This document shows, in pieces, positions 32,212 to 39,934 of a DNA stretch of 64,000 nt. Below the pieces are notes generated by a model that had not been told where the DNA came from, made no database searches, and was given only the letters and a program-made list of their open reading frames with translations. Positions within the stretch are counted from its first letter, which is position 1. Each line of letters starts with the position of its first letter. Made by a program: the position numbers and the translations under genes. Origin of the DNA: Halorubrum sp. 48-1-W. GTDB lineage: Archaea; Halobacteriota; Halobacteria; Halobacteriales; Haloferacaceae. The stretch lies in the NCBI RefSeq assembly GCF_003287355.1, contig NZ_QMIM01000001.1:186001-250000 (forward strand), read 5' to 3'.

Positions 32212-32255
32212 CGACTCAGGCGGTGTCGGTGAGCGACTCAGACGATGTCGGTGAG
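32212..32255. repeat. 22-bp near-duplicate at the 3' end of the methyltransferase gene
   Basis: Two 22-bp units beginning CGACTCAG overlap the stop-codon end of the methyltransferase gene, differing at two positions. One repeats the last codons of the gene beyond its stop. Confidence 0.7.
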
Positions 32256-33383
32256 CGACTGCTGTTCGTACACGTCGGGGTCGACGCGGGGGGCCTCGCG
32301 GATTTCGGGGTAGTACTCGCGGAACCGCTCGGCCAGCTGTTCGGCCAGCCCGACCGGGACCGCGTTGCCGATCTGTTTCATCACGTCCGTCTTGGTCCCC
32401 TCGAACGCGAACCCGTCGGGGAACGTCTGGAGGCGGGCCATCTCGCGGGGGGTGAGATAGCGGTCCTCCGTCGGGTGGATGAACTCGTTGGTGCTCACCG
32501 TCAGCGACGGCTCGTCGGGGTGGAGCCGACGGAGGTACGTCCCGTACCGCTTGACGATCTCCGGCTCGTGTGGACAGCTGTCCGTGTCCGCACAGCCACA
32601 CCGGTACTTCTTCGTCTTCAGCCTGTCCGGGAGGTCGCGGTAGTAGCCGCCCGGCGGGACGTGCCGGATCCGCTCGAGCGTCTTCTCCCGTGTATCGGCG
32701 TACGTCATGTTCGGCAGGTCGTCGCTCAGGCCCGCGAGCGCCTCGCCCGCCGTCCGCCAGCTTCCCTCCGCTGGCGTCGTCGGCTCCGGGAAGCGGATCG
32801 GGACGTCCCGGTTCGTCCCGACGAAGAAGATCCGTCGACGCTTCTGTGGGACGCCGTACCGTTCCGCCTCGAGGACCCGGTACTCGCAGTCGTACCCTTC
32901 GGTCTCGAACTGCCGGACGATCAGGTCTTTGACGTACCGGTCGTCGCTCGTCTGCCTGTTTATCAGGTCCCGGACGTTCTCCATCAAGACGAGTTGGGGG
33001 TCGAGGACGGTGACCATCCGCAGGAACTCCTCGAAGAGCGTGTTGCGGCGGTCCTTCTCCATCTCGTCGAGCTCGATCCGCTCGTTGTTGAGGCGGCTGA
33101 AGCCCTGACACGGCGGGCCGCCGATCACGACGTCGACGTCATCGACAGCGTGACCCGTCTCCCGGACCGCCTCGTGGACGTCCTCGGCGGAGAGTTCGCG
33201 GACGTCCTCCTCGAGGAACCGGACGTCCGGTCGATTCCGTCGGTACGTCGCGGCGGCCGGCTCCCACTGGTCGCTCGCGAGGACCACGTCGAAGCCGGCC
33301 CGCTCGAACCCCAGGTCGAGCCCGCCACAGCCGGAGAAGAAGCTGGCGACGACCGGCCCGTCCGCGCTCTCGTCAGTACCCAT
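32238..33383 (-). CDS. DNA (cytosine-5-)-methyltransferase
   Basis: 381 residues from ATG 33383 (GTG 33392 is an alternative). C5-methyltransferase motifs occur in order: I FFSGCGGLDLGFERAG (~14-29), IV GGPPCQGFS with nucleophile Cys92, VI ENVRDL, VIII QKRRRIFFVG, IX near the target region and X QIGNAVP. A CGCADTDSCPHEPE segment in the target-recognition region has three cysteines and may be structural. It modifies an unknown site and would protect DNA from the adjacent candidate endonuclease. Confidence 0.95.
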   Translation of the reverse strand: MGTDESADGPVVASFFSGCGGLDLGFERAGFDVVLASDQWEPAAATYRRNRPDVRFLEEDVRELSAEDVHEAVRETGHAVDDVDVVIGGPPCQGFSRLNNERIELDEMEKDRRNTLFEEFLRMVTVLDPQLVLMENVRDLINRQTSDDRYVKDLIVRQFETEGYDCEYRVLEAERYGVPQKRRRIFFVGTNRDVPIRFPEPTTPAEGSWRTAGEALAGLSDDLPNMTYADTREKTLERIRHVPPGGYYRDLPDRLKTKKYRCGCADTDSCPHEPEIVKRYGTYLRRLHPDEPSLTVSTNEFIHPTEDRYLTPREMARLQTFPDGFAFEGTKTDVMKQIGNAVPVGLAEQLAERFREYYPEIREAPRVDPDVYEQQSLTDIV

Positions 33384-33511
33384 CGCCGTCACCCCGGAGC
33401 GACGCGCGATCGTGTCGTCGGTTCATCTACCCACCGTTCGGCGCCTGCGGATAAAAAACGCCCAGCTTTCGCGTTTCACGCTCGGGGCCACTCGACGACG
33501 GGGACCGCCCC

Positions 33512-33643
33512 ACCCCACCGGTTCCGCTGTTACCGGACGTCTCTCGGGGGTACGCTCGCGCACACCCACCCCACCGGTTCCGCTGTTACCGGACGTCTCT
33601 CGGGGGCATGCTCGCGCACACCCACCCCACCGGTTCCGCTGTT
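33512..33643. repeat. 56-bp tandem repeats (2.4 copies) with conserved CCCACCCCACCGGTTCC core
   Basis: Three cores, each containing ACCCCACCGGTTCCGCTGTT, are spaced exactly 56 bp apart at ~33512, ~33568 and ~33624; the intervening spacer (ACCGGACGTCTCTCGGGGG and onward) is also repeated. The copies at 33561-33587 and 33617-33643 are identical over 27 bp. The same 27-bp core recurs inverted at 34007-34033 with one mismatch, on the other side of an orc1/cdc6 remnant. Confidence 0.9.
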
Positions 33644-35785: not shown

Positions 35786-35820
35786 AAAGCCTCGCGCTTC
35801 AGCGCGGGGAGGATGTCAAT
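35786..35820 (+). ncRNA. Orphan IS200/IS605 (TnpB) right-end / omega-RNA-like hairpin
   Basis: AAGCCTCGCGCTTCAGCGCG followed by GGGAGGATGTCAA closely matches, from memory, the 3' end of haloarchaeal IS1341-type tnpB units. There the hairpin C(G/A)CGC-TTCA-GCGCG, then GGGAGGATGTCA, forms the end of the TnpB guide (omega) RNA and the element's right terminus. No tnpB or tnpA is found upstream, only decayed genes. The bases directly after it (GAACATAGCGGTGAATTAG) would be the guide. Confidence 0.6.
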
Positions 35821-35826
35821 GAACAT

Positions 35827-35971
35827 AGCGGTGAATTAGTCCCGATATGCTTTGTCGTCTGATCTGCTCAAATCAAGAGATCCGGTAAAGCCTCAGTAGA
35901 GAACTTCAAATTAGCCTATTTTAAAATAGTCTATTCGGAAGTATTATTCACCGTCACGATGGAGTGGGTGT
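35827..35971. promoter_or_regulatory. AT-rich promoter region with 14-bp palindrome upstream of the DUF234 ATPase
   Basis: CTATTTTAAAATAG at 35916-35929 is a perfect 14-bp palindrome that also contains a TATA-like core, ~43 bp before ATG 35972. It could be both promoter and autoregulatory operator. Confidence 0.5.
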
Positions 35972-37354
35972 ATGAACCAATTCGTGAATCGAGACGACGA
36001 ACTCTCTCGGCTACGTGGATGCTACGAATCCGACGACGCAGAGATGGTCGTGGTATTCGGTCGGCGACGCCTCGGGAAGACACAGCTCGTCCGGCACTCG
36101 CTTTCCGACCGTGACGACGCAGTCGTCTATCAGGCGACGGAGACCACTTCCCAGATACAACGTGACGAGTTCGTCGATGTCGCCTCCGAGAACTTCCCCG
36201 GGATCACACAGATCAAACAGAACTGGGAAGCGCTGCTCGGGTATCTGGGGGATCAGGACGGAATCGTGGTTCTGGACGAATTCCCCTACCTCATCGACGC
36301 CGACGAGAGTCTCCCGTCCGTGGTTCAGCGACTGTGGGACCAACGGCTCCAGAACACTTCGGGAACGCTGGTTCTGGTCGGCTCGTCGATCAGTATGATG
36401 GAAGAAGCGACGCTTCTCGGAAACAGTCCCTTGTATGGCCGGTTCACGGAGCGGCTTGATCTTCGGCCTCTCAGTTTCGCCGCTGCACAGGCGTTCGTTC
36501 CGGACGAGTATTCGCCTGAAGAGCGGATTGTCACGTGGGGTATCTTCGGTGGCGTCCCGTACTATCTCGATGGCGTCGATCTCGGACGAGACCTGGGAAC
36601 GGTTCTCACCGAGGAAATCCTCTCCCAGAAGGGATATCTCCATAACGAGCCGGAGTACGTACTCCGCACCGAACTCACAGGCCCGAACCGATACTTTGCG
36701 ATCCTCACCGCCATCGCCGCGGGAAAGACGACGTCGAACGAGATCGCTCAAGCGATAGGAATCGATGGGAAGCAGATATCGACGTACACACAGAAGTTGG
36801 AGCGTCTGCGGCTCATCGAGCGGGAGGTCCCGATCACTGAAGAGAAGGCAAAGTCACGTCGGGGACGCTATCGAATCCTCGATCCCCTGTTCCGGTTCTG
36901 GTTCCGATTCGTTTACGGCAAGGAAGATCGATACGAACGACTCGGAGAGAATGCCTACGACGCGGTCATTGAGCCAGAACTTCCAGATTTCGTGAGTCAC
37001 GAGTTCGAGAGACTTTGCCAAGACGCACTCCCGGGCCTCTATCCCGCAGAGACGTTCCTCGATATCGGTCGGTGGTGGTACAAGGAACATGAGGTTGACG
37101 TCGTCGGCTTCACCACGCACGGGACGATGGTCGTGGGGGAATGCAAGTTCACGAACGCACCGCTTGACTACGGAGCCCTCGCTTCTCTCGAAGACCACGC
37201 CGCCGGGATACGCTGGACGCCGGACGGCGATGAGAGGAACACTGAGTACGCCTTATTCACCCGGAATGGTGCGACACAGTCCGTTCAGGAAGCTGTGTCC
37301 GAGCGCGATGACGTACGACTGTTTGAGCTCGGAGATATTACGGAGCACGCGTAA
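35972..37354 (+). CDS. DUF234-family ATP-binding protein (archaeal STAND-like ATPase)
   Basis: 460 residues. Walker A GRRRLGKT is at 30-37; Walker B VVLDEFPYL is at ~99-107; a GSSISMMEE sensor segment follows. A winged helix (TTSNEIAQAIGIDGKQISTYTQKLERL) precedes the C-terminal DUF234 domain, which contains a PD-(D/E)XK-like EVDVVGF...MVVGECKF core. The family is widespread in archaea and often tied to mobile or defence regions, but its function is not established. Codon use and GC are clearly lower than in the flanking genes, a sign of transfer. Confidence 0.88.
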   Translation: MNQFVNRDDELSRLRGCYESDDAEMVVVFGRRRLGKTQLVRHSLSDRDDAVVYQATETTSQIQRDEFVDVASENFPGITQIKQNWEALLGYLGDQDGIVVLDEFPYLIDADESLPSVVQRLWDQRLQNTSGTLVLVGSSISMMEEATLLGNSPLYGRFTERLDLRPLSFAAAQAFVPDEYSPEERIVTWGIFGGVPYYLDGVDLGRDLGTVLTEEILSQKGYLHNEPEYVLRTELTGPNRYFAILTAIAAGKTTSNEIAQAIGIDGKQISTYTQKLERLRLIEREVPITEEKAKSRRGRYRILDPLFRFWFRFVYGKEDRYERLGENAYDAVIEPELPDFVSHEFERLCQDALPGLYPAETFLDIGRWWYKEHEVDVVGFTTHGTMVVGECKFTNAPLDYGALASLEDHAAGIRWTPDGDERNTEYALFTRNGATQSVQEAVSERDDVRLFELGDITEHA

Positions 37355-37632
37355 GGGCACTATCAAACGTCACGACGGCGAGAGGCTCGAAAGCCGCTGC
37401 TCAGAATCGAACTAATCGCAGAACAGGCTAAGCGATCTTGGATAAAACAGCGTAAGAACGCTTAGAACGCCCGTTTGCGTTCTAGAACCGTTCTCACTCG
37501 TTGCCGAACATCTGGCGCATGAGTAGTTAGCTGTGTTTAATTTATGAACACAATATGAGATAGGCCGAGAAGATCGTAATCCGGTGCGTATCGGGATGGT
37601 TCAGGTCTTTGCGCGCGGGTCCATTGTCGTTA
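37355..37632. other. AT-rich non-coding stretch with att-like repeat and hairpin
   Basis: No gene. It contains an 8-bp-arm inverted repeat (TAGAACGC / GCGTTCTA, 37463-37484), then the 25-bp copy of the secY 3' end at 37496-37520, then AT-rich sequence including GTTTAATTTATGAACAC. Composition differs strongly from the ribosomal operon beyond 38.4 kb. Confidence 0.7.
37496..37520. repeat. 25-bp direct repeat, copy A (att-like)
   Basis: It begins ACTCGTTGCCGAACATCTGG and is identical over 25 bp to 38458-38482, the 3' end of secY (codons MRQMFGNE on the minus strand). Identity stops abruptly on both sides. Together the two copies bracket vapBC. Confidence 0.9.
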
Positions 37633-37741
37633 TTGTCTGTCATTGATCTGGAACACCTCGTTCCGGAAGCGCTCCAGATGGCCTTCGAGATCGGTAAACT
37701 CGATTCCGGTCACGTCCTTCGCGTGCCGGTGATGTCCCCAT
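37633..37741 (-). pseudogene. Coding-looking C-terminal fragment next to vapC
   Basis: On the minus strand, one frame reads EWGHHRHAKDVTGIEF, then TDLEGHLERFRNEVFQINDRQ and a stop at ~37633. It begins inside the vapC 3' end in a different frame and has no start codon. The protein-like composition suggests the tail of a lost gene fused onto the cassette, or chance. I do not recognise the family. Confidence 0.35.
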
Positions 37742-38143
37742 TCACTCGTCCTCGTCGAGCAATTGTTGAGGGAGCTCCGCACCGTGCTCGACCAATTCGG
37801 AATCAAACGAGACGAGGGTTGCGTCGGCAGCGTCGGTTGCCGAAAGGATCATCGCGTCCATGGGGTACAACAGCGTTTCCGATTGGAGGCGGTTCGCCGC
37901 CATCATATCGGAGGCGTCAGGAAAAGTCACGGTCATACGAGAGGTAACTCGGTTCTCGATGGCATCGATTCGCTCCCGTTCGAACCGTTTCTTTTTGCTC
38001 AGAACACTCCGTAGTTCCATGAGGCTGAGAACCGAAACGAGTGGATCATCAACTCGATCAAGCAGTTCGATTGCTTCATGGGACCGATCGGTATCCCGAG
38101 TAACTGTTGCGACGAGAACGTTCGTGTCGAGGAGTACCCTCAT
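37742..38143 (-). CDS. vapC: VapC-type PIN-domain toxin
   Basis: 133 residues. PIN-domain acidic residues are in place: Asp6 in VLLDTN, Glu43 in SLMELRSVLS, Asp96 in YPMDAMILS and Asp114 in LVSFDSELVEHG. PIN toxins are Mg-dependent RNases, usually cutting tRNA or rRNA. The ATG overlaps the stop of the upstream antitoxin gene (ATGA). The pair lies between two 25-bp direct repeats. Confidence 0.9.
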   Translation of the reverse strand: MRVLLDTNVLVATVTRDTDRSHEAIELLDRVDDPLVSVLSLMELRSVLSKKKRFERERIDAIENRVTSRMTVTFPDASDMMAANRLQSETLLYPMDAMILSATDAADATLVSFDSELVEHGAELPQQLLDEDE

Positions 38144-38292
38144 AACCGTTCGCGGACGTCACGAACGGCTTCGACGGAGTCAACCTCGACGTCGAGTCCC
38201 AGCTCTGAGAGTGCCTGTCCGAGCGGGACCGTCTCGTCATCATCGGGGTCAGAGGAAACGAACTCCTCGAAGTCGTCCGAAGTGAGACTCAT
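38140..38292 (-). CDS. vapB: VapB-type antitoxin
   Basis: 50 residues beginning MSLTSDDFEEFVSSDPDDD and ending EAVRDVRERL. It is very acidic, the right size for an antitoxin, and overlaps vapC by the ATGA junction, which is the main evidence. The N-terminal DNA-binding fold expected of VapB is not obvious, so this is a member of the short haloarchaeal antitoxins that precede PIN genes rather than a classical AbrB or RHH type. Confidence 0.75.
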   Translation of the reverse strand: MSLTSDDFEEFVSSDPDDDETVPLGQALSELGLDVEVDSVEAVRDVRERL

Positions 38293-38423
38293 ACTTGACT
38301 TTGCCCACCAACTCGCAAAAGACTACTGGTGGTCTCGTTGTCCGTGGTGATTTGGTGCTACTCGAATGTACGCCGACCACCCCCAGATGGGAGACAACTG
38401 AGGAGGGAGCAGTCGCTCAGGGT

Positions 38424-38431
38424 CGAAAAAG
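38424..38431 (-). terminator. Possible T-run terminator after secY
   Basis: On the minus strand CTTTTTC occurs ~28 bp after the secY stop. It may end the long ribosomal operon. Confidence 0.35.
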
Positions 38432-38455
38432 AATGTAAAGGAGCGTCGATGTTCG

Positions 38456-39934
38456 TTACTCGTTGCCGAACATCTGGCGCATCATCGGATGCATCTCCAT
38501 GAGTTGCTCTTCGGCGATCTCCTCGTACAGCTTGTACGTGATCGAGACCGCGAGCAGCAGCCCGGTTCCGGAGACCTGCCCGATGGTGCCGAGTAAGTTC
38601 GCCATCACGGCGAGTAGCCCGACGAGCGCCCCGCCGATGACGGTCACCTGCGGGATGTACCGCTCCATCACCTTCTCTACGACCTGCGGGTTCCGCCGGA
38701 ACCCGGGGATCTGCATCCCCGAGTTCTGGATCTGCTTCGCCGTCGCCTCCGGCCCCATGCCGGTGGTCTCGACCCAGAAGATCGCGAAGATCGCCCCGCC
38801 GACGACCATGAACGTGAGGTCGATGGCGAGCCGAACGGCGATCATCCACGGCTCGACCGACGCCGGGATCTCCCCGAGGAACCACATCCACTCGGTCCGC
38901 GACTGGATCGGGTTCAGGTAGTAGAACAGCCCGGAGAGGGGTTGTCCCTGGTCGCTGTAGGTCCCGAGCCACGCGGGCATCCCCGCCCACTGCGAGGAGA
39001 GGATCTGCCCGAGGAACTGGATGTTCGCCTGGAGCGCGCGGACGAGGATCATCGGCAGGACGGAGGCGTAGATGAGCTTCACCGGGAATCGCCCCCGAGC
39101 ACCCTTCACGCGGGCGTGTGACAGCGGGATCTCGACGCGGACCGACTCCGCGTACACGACGATCCCGAAGATGAACACCGTCGTGAAGAGCGCCAGCACG
39201 TTTCCGGGCTCGAAAAGCAGGTTCTGGAGCCCCTCTGCCGTGAACGGGGACAGCGAGACGGGGACGTCACCGAAGACGATCCCGTACCAGCTCGCGAAGA
39301 AGCCGGGCGCGCCGAGCGCCGAGAAGCTGAAGAAGCCCCCGACGATCTGCTGGCTCACGGCGGCGATGATGAACAGCCCCACGCCGGAGCCGACGCCCCA
39401 CTTGCTCACGATCTCGTCCATGAACAGGATGAGGAGGCCGCCGACGAAGATCTGCGCGAAGATCAACACCTCGACGCCGAACTCGCCGATCCCGAGCGCC
39501 TGTCCGACGGCCTGGTCGGCTGGAAGGAACTCGCCGGTGAACACCATCGGAGCGGCCGTGAGCGCGGTGACGATGATCACGAGCAGCTTCTGGAGGCCCT
39601 GATAGAGGACCTGATCGCGCGGGTCGTCCGTGTCGAGCCCGAGCAGGTTCGCGCCGCCGAGCAGCTGTAAGACGATCGACGCCGTGACGATCGGACCGAT
39701 ACCGACCTGTAACAGCGAGCCCGACTCCCCGGCCAACACGGAGCGGAACTGTCCGAAGAAGTCGCTCCCCTGTTCGGCTGCCAGGCCGAACGGGTTGATG
39801 TTGGTCAAAAAGAAGTAGACGAGCAGGATCCCCGCCGTCCACATGAGCTTGCGCCGGAACGGGACGTGGCCCGTGGGCCGCTCCACGACGGGCATCCGCG
39901 AGAGCACCGGTTCGGCGACCTCCTTCCAACTCAT
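38456..39934 (-). CDS. secY: Preprotein translocase subunit SecY
   Basis: 492 residues with ten membrane helices, the channel-forming Sec61-alpha homologue. The N-terminal region VERPTGHVPFRRKLMWTAGILLVYFFLTNINPFGL and the plug-region LLQVGIGPIVTASIVLQLLGGANLL are diagnostic. The last codons (MRQMFGNE) form the downstream copy of the 25-bp direct repeat. It closes the ribosomal operon, 2 bp after L15. The adenylate kinase gene that often follows secY in haloarchaea is absent, replaced by the vapBC cassette. Confidence 0.97.
   Translation of the reverse strand: MSWKEVAEPVLSRMPVVERPTGHVPFRRKLMWTAGILLVYFFLTNINPFGLAAEQGSDFFGQFRSVLAGESGSLLQVGIGPIVTASIVLQLLGGANLLGLDTDDPRDQVLYQGLQKLLVIIVTALTAAPMVFTGEFLPADQAVGQALGIGEFGVEVLIFAQIFVGGLLILFMDEIVSKWGVGSGVGLFIIAAVSQQIVGGFFSFSALGAPGFFASWYGIVFGDVPVSLSPFTAEGLQNLLFEPGNVLALFTTVFIFGIVVYAESVRVEIPLSHARVKGARGRFPVKLIYASVLPMILVRALQANIQFLGQILSSQWAGMPAWLGTYSDQGQPLSGLFYYLNPIQSRTEWMWFLGEIPASVEPWMIAVRLAIDLTFMVVGGAIFAIFWVETTGMGPEATAKQIQNSGMQIPGFRRNPQVVEKVMERYIPQVTVIGGALVGLLAVMANLLGTIGQVSGTGLLLAVSITYKLYEEIAEEQLMEMHPMMRQMFGNE
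38458..38482. repeat. 25-bp direct repeat, copy B (within secY)
   Basis: Second copy of the repeat at 37496-37520, here forming the coding end of secY up to the first base of its stop codon. It would be the original chromosomal target if the cassette integrated site-specifically. Confidence 0.9.

Follow-up and report, generated by a model that had tools for sequence, protein, structure and literature searches.

When two copies of the last 25 bp of secY bracket a small toxin-antitoxin cassette, as is the case in Halorubrum sp. 48-1-W, the question arises whether the 3′ end of secY serves as an attachment site for mobile DNA and, if so, what kind of element the cassette is. The region analyzed here, hereafter called the window, is a stretch of 64,000 nucleotides (contig NZ_QMIM01000001.1, positions 186,001 to 250,000) from a genome assembly of 3.58 Mb in 69 contigs.

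The 25-bp repeat, ACTCGTTGCCGAACATCTGGCGCAT, is present in two identical copies in the same orientation, 962 bp apart (Table 1). Read along secY, the outer copy gives ATGCGCCAGATGTTCGGCAACGAGTGA, that is, the eight codons for MRQMFGNE again and in frame, and the difference between the two tails is limited to the stop codon, TAA in secY versus TGA in the displaced tail. No third copy was found in the window at up to three mismatches, 100 shuffled sequences gave no match to the repeat, and no match to the secY tail on the opposite strand was found at up to seven mismatches in 916 kb of collected sequence, consisting mostly of secY regions. The first-pass annotation, made from the sequence alone, had claimed the identical recurrence of the last 25 bp of secY at this distance, and the claim holds. 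It had also stated that a fragment of a secY paralogue with extended homology would refute integration; the similarity between the copies breaks off precisely at the repeat ends, and the outer copy is therefore not a paralogue. An element integrated at the 3′ end of a gene is expected to be flanked by direct repeats, one copy of which finishes the target gene, and this criterion is met. The two tails equal each other and the secY variant of this genome exactly, so that the crossover point cannot be read from them.

Table 1. Features at the secY locus (window numbering; strand left empty where none is assigned).
Feature	Position	Strand	Remarks
Cytosine methyltransferase gene	32238..33392	-	in H. 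halodurans (G014), separated from the secY tail by 189 bp
IS-like hairpin end	35790..35816		abuts truncated mini-element B
Mini-element B	35820..37495		left end GAGAACGGTTCTAGAACGC, adjoining the outer copy; truncated on the right behind TATGTTCA (35820)
ATPase_2/DUF234 gene, 460 aa	35972..37354	+	cargo of mini-element B; PF01637 and PF03008
Outer 25-bp repeat copy	37496..37520	-	displaced former secY 3′ end, stop TGA
Mini-element A right end	37521..37559	-	dyad TGTGTTCATAAATTAAACACAG at 37531-37552
vapC, PIN-domain toxin, 133 aa	37742..38143	-	PF01850, E=5e-15
50-aa acidic ORF, putative antitoxin	38140..38292	-	vapB by position only
Mini-element A left end	38374..38457	-	found also in the large elements of G064 and p163; identity to G064 is 94.5% across 109 bp, counting the tail
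secY, 492 aa	38456..39934	-	3′ end very likely the attachment site; one close homologue per genome
Inner 25-bp repeat copy	38458..38482	-	completes secY; codons MRQMFGNE and first stop base

The DNA between the repeats, which we call mini-element A, comprises 0.96 kb and has a GC content of 54%, versus 68% for the window. The first-pass claim that it contains vapC and vapB holds in part. The toxin gene meets the PIN-domain criterion for a VapBC system (PF01850), while the 50-aa ORF, which lies upstream of vapC with a 4-bp overlap, has no match in Pfam or NCBIfam and does not meet the criterion of a recognizable VapB-type antitoxin. Its role as the partner of vapC is inferred from the overlap and from its conservation, without a family match. 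A dyad that the earlier annotation had missed lies inside the right end of mini-element A, adjoining the outer copy, and is kept in complete copies of the element. The inverted repeat with 8-bp arms that had been reported instead (37463-37470/37477-37484) is real, but it is part of the left end of mini-element B rather than of the cassette. The statement that no integrase is present was also confirmed: no relatives of the three recombinases tested occur within 22 kb of secY on the side where vapBC lies, and the window's own genome yielded no close cognate integrase of either of the secY-linked families described below. The criterion of an integrase inside the element is thus not met by the window element and is met by the large elements at secY, while mini-element A does satisfy one criterion of a CIME, namely that integration and transfer genes are absent and both attachment junctions are kept.

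Comparison of the secY downstream region among relatives, which the first-pass annotation had proposed as a check, provided alleles without the insert. In five genomes (G005, G009, G015, G062, and G075) the secY tail is joined straight to the flank that lies beyond the outer copy in the window (GAACRGTTCTAGAACGYAAACGGGCGTTCT and variants), with one repeat copy at the junction, as the proposed check had required. In Halorubrum halodurans (G014) the secY tail is followed, at the distance given in Table 1, by the dcm (cytosine methyltransferase) gene; the dcm-type gene of the window is 5.1 kb from the secY tail, with about 5 kb of stacked DNA in between. Directly upstream of the methyltransferase gene of the window, positions 33500-33640 are taken up by short tandem repeats, each about 57 bp long (CCCCACCGGTTCCGCTGTTACCGGACGTCTCTCGGGGG...).

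The flank beyond the outer copy (GAGAACGG...) was considered as native chromosome, and this assignment was rejected on the basis of G002 and G005, which reveal it to be the left end of mini-element B. G002 has a complete mini-element B of 1.72 kb, ending in a TGTTCA...TGAACA dyad and another secY tail, and G005 has a counterpart with a decayed terminal tail. The outer flank of the cassette must accordingly be corrected from virgin chromosome to a second mini-element, and the locus is therefore a tandem array. In the window, the cut right end of mini-element B is abutted by a hairpin that we take to be an IS end. An arrangement of the same kind is seen in G019, where the vapBC mini-element is placed behind a 50-kb element, at the displaced tail of the latter. 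Such accretion has been described for CIMEs and ICEs (PMC5704250), and the stacking at the secY site fits this pattern.

Both ends of mini-element A are present in six genomes, namely that of the window and five others of the Halorubrum group (G027, G061, G063, G019, and G070). Aligned from tail to tail, the six copies have in common the left end (CGAACATC or CGGACATC ... CCTGAGYGRC), the 50-aa ORF and vapC (of which the latter is for the most part deleted in G070), and a right end in which the TGTGTTCA dyad is fused to the secY tail. The right-end pattern occurs, at up to three mismatches, in 6 of the 53 genomes of the genus and is always fused to a secY tail; this count takes in G002, where the pattern ends mini-element B, and leaves out the more diverged G070. 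The reversed pattern, used as a control, gave zero matches in the same 53 genomes, in which no both-ended copies at unrelated sites with duplicated local sequence were seen either. Decayed copies of the mini-element are found in G034 and G074. The sequence CGAACATC after the stop codon was rejected as an element-specific feature; similar sequence trails single or displaced tails elsewhere, and it may therefore be captured host sequence.

Horizontal transfer of mini-element A is shown by the comparison with secY. Between the window and G027, the element is 92.9% identical and secY 88.5%. The element tree sets the window, G061, and G027 apart from the others with a support of 0.994, whereas the secY tree groups G027 with G074, G028, and G063. 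This conflict, together with the element being closer than secY, implies that the element was transferred across lineages. In five elements the 50-aa protein is identical despite dS values of up to 0.55, and the dN/dS of vapC is about 0.1-0.3, from which we conclude that the pair is under selection. In two loci (L119 of G070 and L122 of G074) the toxin gene is decayed and the 50-aa partner gene retained, which would be expected if the partner is an antitoxin, a possibility that we put forward only tentatively.

Other elements at the same site, which had also been proposed as a check, were found in relatives, where secY-tail repeats flank elements of 21 kb (G064), 42 kb (G010), 46 kb (G022), 50 kb (G019), 78 kb (G110), and 93 kb (G225). 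The G064 element (L104 and L105; C3:83457-104648), which spans the 21 kb between the secY tail and the displaced tail, contains a CRISPR-Cas locus resembling type I-B, in which a long repeat array accompanies cas-type genes (called by eye from the ORFs, without a CRISPR tool), a 710-aa DUF7845 protein, a 201-aa recombinase (PF00589), and a 427-aa tyrosine recombinase whose gene begins beside the outer tail copy. Its toxin-antitoxin pair matches that of the window at 88% over 597 bp. Since both this pair and the left end match, the data are compatible with either option offered by the first-pass annotation, a minimal element or a relic of a larger island. Remnants of the 5′ end of the 710-aa gene are found at the left side of several mini-elements. 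The right ends of mini-element A and of the G064 element differ, so that a simple deletion is insufficient and recombination between elements must be involved. While the relation to the large element is shown, the deletion history is inferred; internal deletion, combined with such recombination, would be the simplest origin of mini-element A.

A related element, with the left end, the right end, and the 201- and 427-aa recombinases as in G064, is found on plasmid p163 of Halorubrum sp. BOL3-1. At its right junction the tail match stops after GCGCCAGATGT and other sequence follows from there. We infer that this element occupies a secondary site, with a crossover within GCGCCAGATGT; the empty plasmid site was not seen. 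Regarding the cargo of the remaining elements, the 46-kb element of G022 is a tailed provirus encoding portal, major head, and tape-measure proteins, that of G061 carries DISARM DrmA, DrmB, and DrmE, and that of G019 Hma-like proteins. Taken with the CRISPR-Cas locus of G064, this cargo makes the secY site a hotspot of defense islands and proviruses. The phage records gave no match to the junction, and a single tail match in the viral collection (L103) was dismissed as chance; it falls within a gene on an unrelated phage-like contig.

The search for an integrase specific for the secY tail, likewise suggested at first pass, yielded two tyrosine-recombinase families in relatives. In G061, G019, G010, and G076, an RHH-like protein of about 206 aa (assigned by eye) and a 373-aa tyrosine recombinase are encoded directly downstream of secY. 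At E values below 1e-40, the 373-aa family occurs in 9 of 195 genomes across the order, with identities as low as 34%, and all nine members follow closely on secY: in seven, secY is no more than 1.5 kb upstream, and the other two have the secY tail upstream on the same strand, at 0.7 kb (G155, where the integrase is truncated and located next to a transposase gene) and at 4.3 kb (G220). As for the 427-aa recombinase, its four best matches (≥45%) all lie beside displaced tails (G064, p163, G022, and G018), and weaker relatives are located elsewhere. The 201-aa recombinase of G064 was not assigned as a cognate enzyme; it has relatives in 50 of 53 genomes, with no linkage to the secY tail shown. 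The 206-aa RHH-like protein (L107:10071-10691 and relatives) is always located between secY and the 373-aa integrase and has no confident family match; it could conceivably be a recombination directionality factor or a regulator.

In several large elements the secY tail and the displaced tail are not the same. The respective endings are MRQMFGE and MRQMFGNE in G019, MRQMFGD and MRQMFGNE in G010, MRQMFGSE and MRQMFGNE in G022, MRQMFGND and MRQMFGKE in G110, and MRQMFGE and MRQMFGSE in G197, where the two tails are on separate contigs. The displaced tails are in frame and have kept their stop codons, as expected of old secY ends. It is thus very likely that the incoming elements provide, and often alter, the last residues of SecY. 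New SecY ends read E, D, SE, and ND (secY tails L179, L189, L181, and L230), and former ones NE and KE (displaced tails L109, L232, L114, and L231).

The insert-free alleles, the other elements, and the linked integrases support the first-pass inference that the secY 3′ end is an attachment site. We consider it very likely that this site is used by tyrosine recombinases and that the cassette derives from a larger element and is CIME-like, without an integrase of its own, its excision and mobilization being inferred. In the mechanism that we propose, the attP of the element would include its own version of the secY tail. By a crossover within the (M)RQM codons, secY would acquire its final residues, its stop codon, and its 3′ flank from the element, while the old secY end would be pushed to the far side of the insert. 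secY would stay intact because the element brings these parts along. The cassette would have a left end of the G064/p163 type, would have lost the 710-aa DUF7845 gene and other cargo by internal deletion, and would further comprise the two toxin-antitoxin genes and, at its right end, a dyad of the TGTTCA...TGAACA type. As both junctions are kept, excision of the cassette by a cognate recombinase, or its transport together with a neighboring element, would in principle be feasible, although such mobilization, in trans or in cis, is inferred, as is the probable stabilization of the cassette by the toxin-antitoxin pair.

Three other explanations have to be weighed against this one. It is possible that the mini-element is a dead relic, i.e., that a large secY-site element decayed and that copies spread only via homologous recombination of the secY region, without any recombinase acting. 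The lack of an integrase in the mini-element and of a close cognate in the genome, as well as the decaying copies in G034, G070, and G074, speak in favor of this, and haloarchaea are known to recombine readily. However, ends and core are intact in six genomes, the higher identity of the element than of secY between G027 and the window indicates that the flanking secY did not travel along, and the mini-element is found behind large elements in G019 and G061.

The repeat could alternatively be a target-site duplication from transposition of the toxin-antitoxin cassette. The two copies are indeed identical in the window and in G027, each equal to its own secY variant, but one and the same site is used every time, the tails are unequal in the large elements of G019, G010, G110, and G197, unlike a duplicated target, and the linked enzymes are tyrosine recombinases, all of which make this explanation very unlikely. 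A chance repeat or a local duplication of a secY fragment, without any mobile element, has nothing in its favor beyond the missing integrase between the copies. It is all but excluded, since the ends are shared and insert-free alleles exist; in addition, no shuffled sequence matched the repeat, the arrangement recurs in six genomes, and large elements occur at the site in several genera.

The attachment-site reading can be compared with known systems. CIMEs and their tandem accretion were described for streptococcal ICEs and IMEs (PMC5704250); like these, mini-element A has no integration genes, keeps both junctions, and is stacked in tandem at one gene end, but it is archaeal, targets secY, and carries only a toxin-antitoxin pair, and the parent elements at secY include a tailed provirus and defense islands. 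With archaeal tyrosine-recombinase elements and proviruses (reviewed in PMC8371274) the secY-site elements share PF00589 integrases, direct repeats, and a regenerated target gene. The targets listed in that review are mostly tRNA genes and few protein-coding genes (e.g., HMG-CoA reductase for virus BJ1), and secY is not among them. The genomic islands of Halorubrum ezzemoulense (PMC11078007) are similar in their low GC, their integrases and defense genes, and their genus, but the main text does not name secY, and mini-elements at secY are not described. The vapC pair resembles VapBC systems in having a PIN toxin and a small overlapping upstream gene, and differs in that the 50-aa partner has no antitoxin family. 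No paper on secY as an attachment site was found in the literature searched, which excluded supplementary tables (the provirus table of PMC8651126 may hold cases), and the main text of three related papers does not mention integration at secY.

A bolder version of our reading, toward which we lean without being able to press it, is that the end of secY acts as a docking site for haloarchaeal mobile DNA generally, that no fewer than two integrase families (of proviruses and of CRISPR-Cas, DISARM, and Hma islands) make use of it, that integrase-less elements of less than 2 kb are mobilized by these recombinases in trans, and that the insertions rewrite the SecY C-terminus.

The results mean that in several families of haloarchaea an essential, universally conserved gene located by ribosomal-protein genes very likely functions as an attachment site as well. 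The secY 3′ end thereby provides a defined address at which new defense islands and proviruses can be spotted, and the two integrase families with a predictable target could become genetic tools. The mini-elements make trans-mobilization and toxin-antitoxin retention directly testable in archaea that are harmless and kept in the laboratory, and the altered tails would constitute a naturally occurring example of mobile DNA changing the C-terminal end of the protein-export channel.
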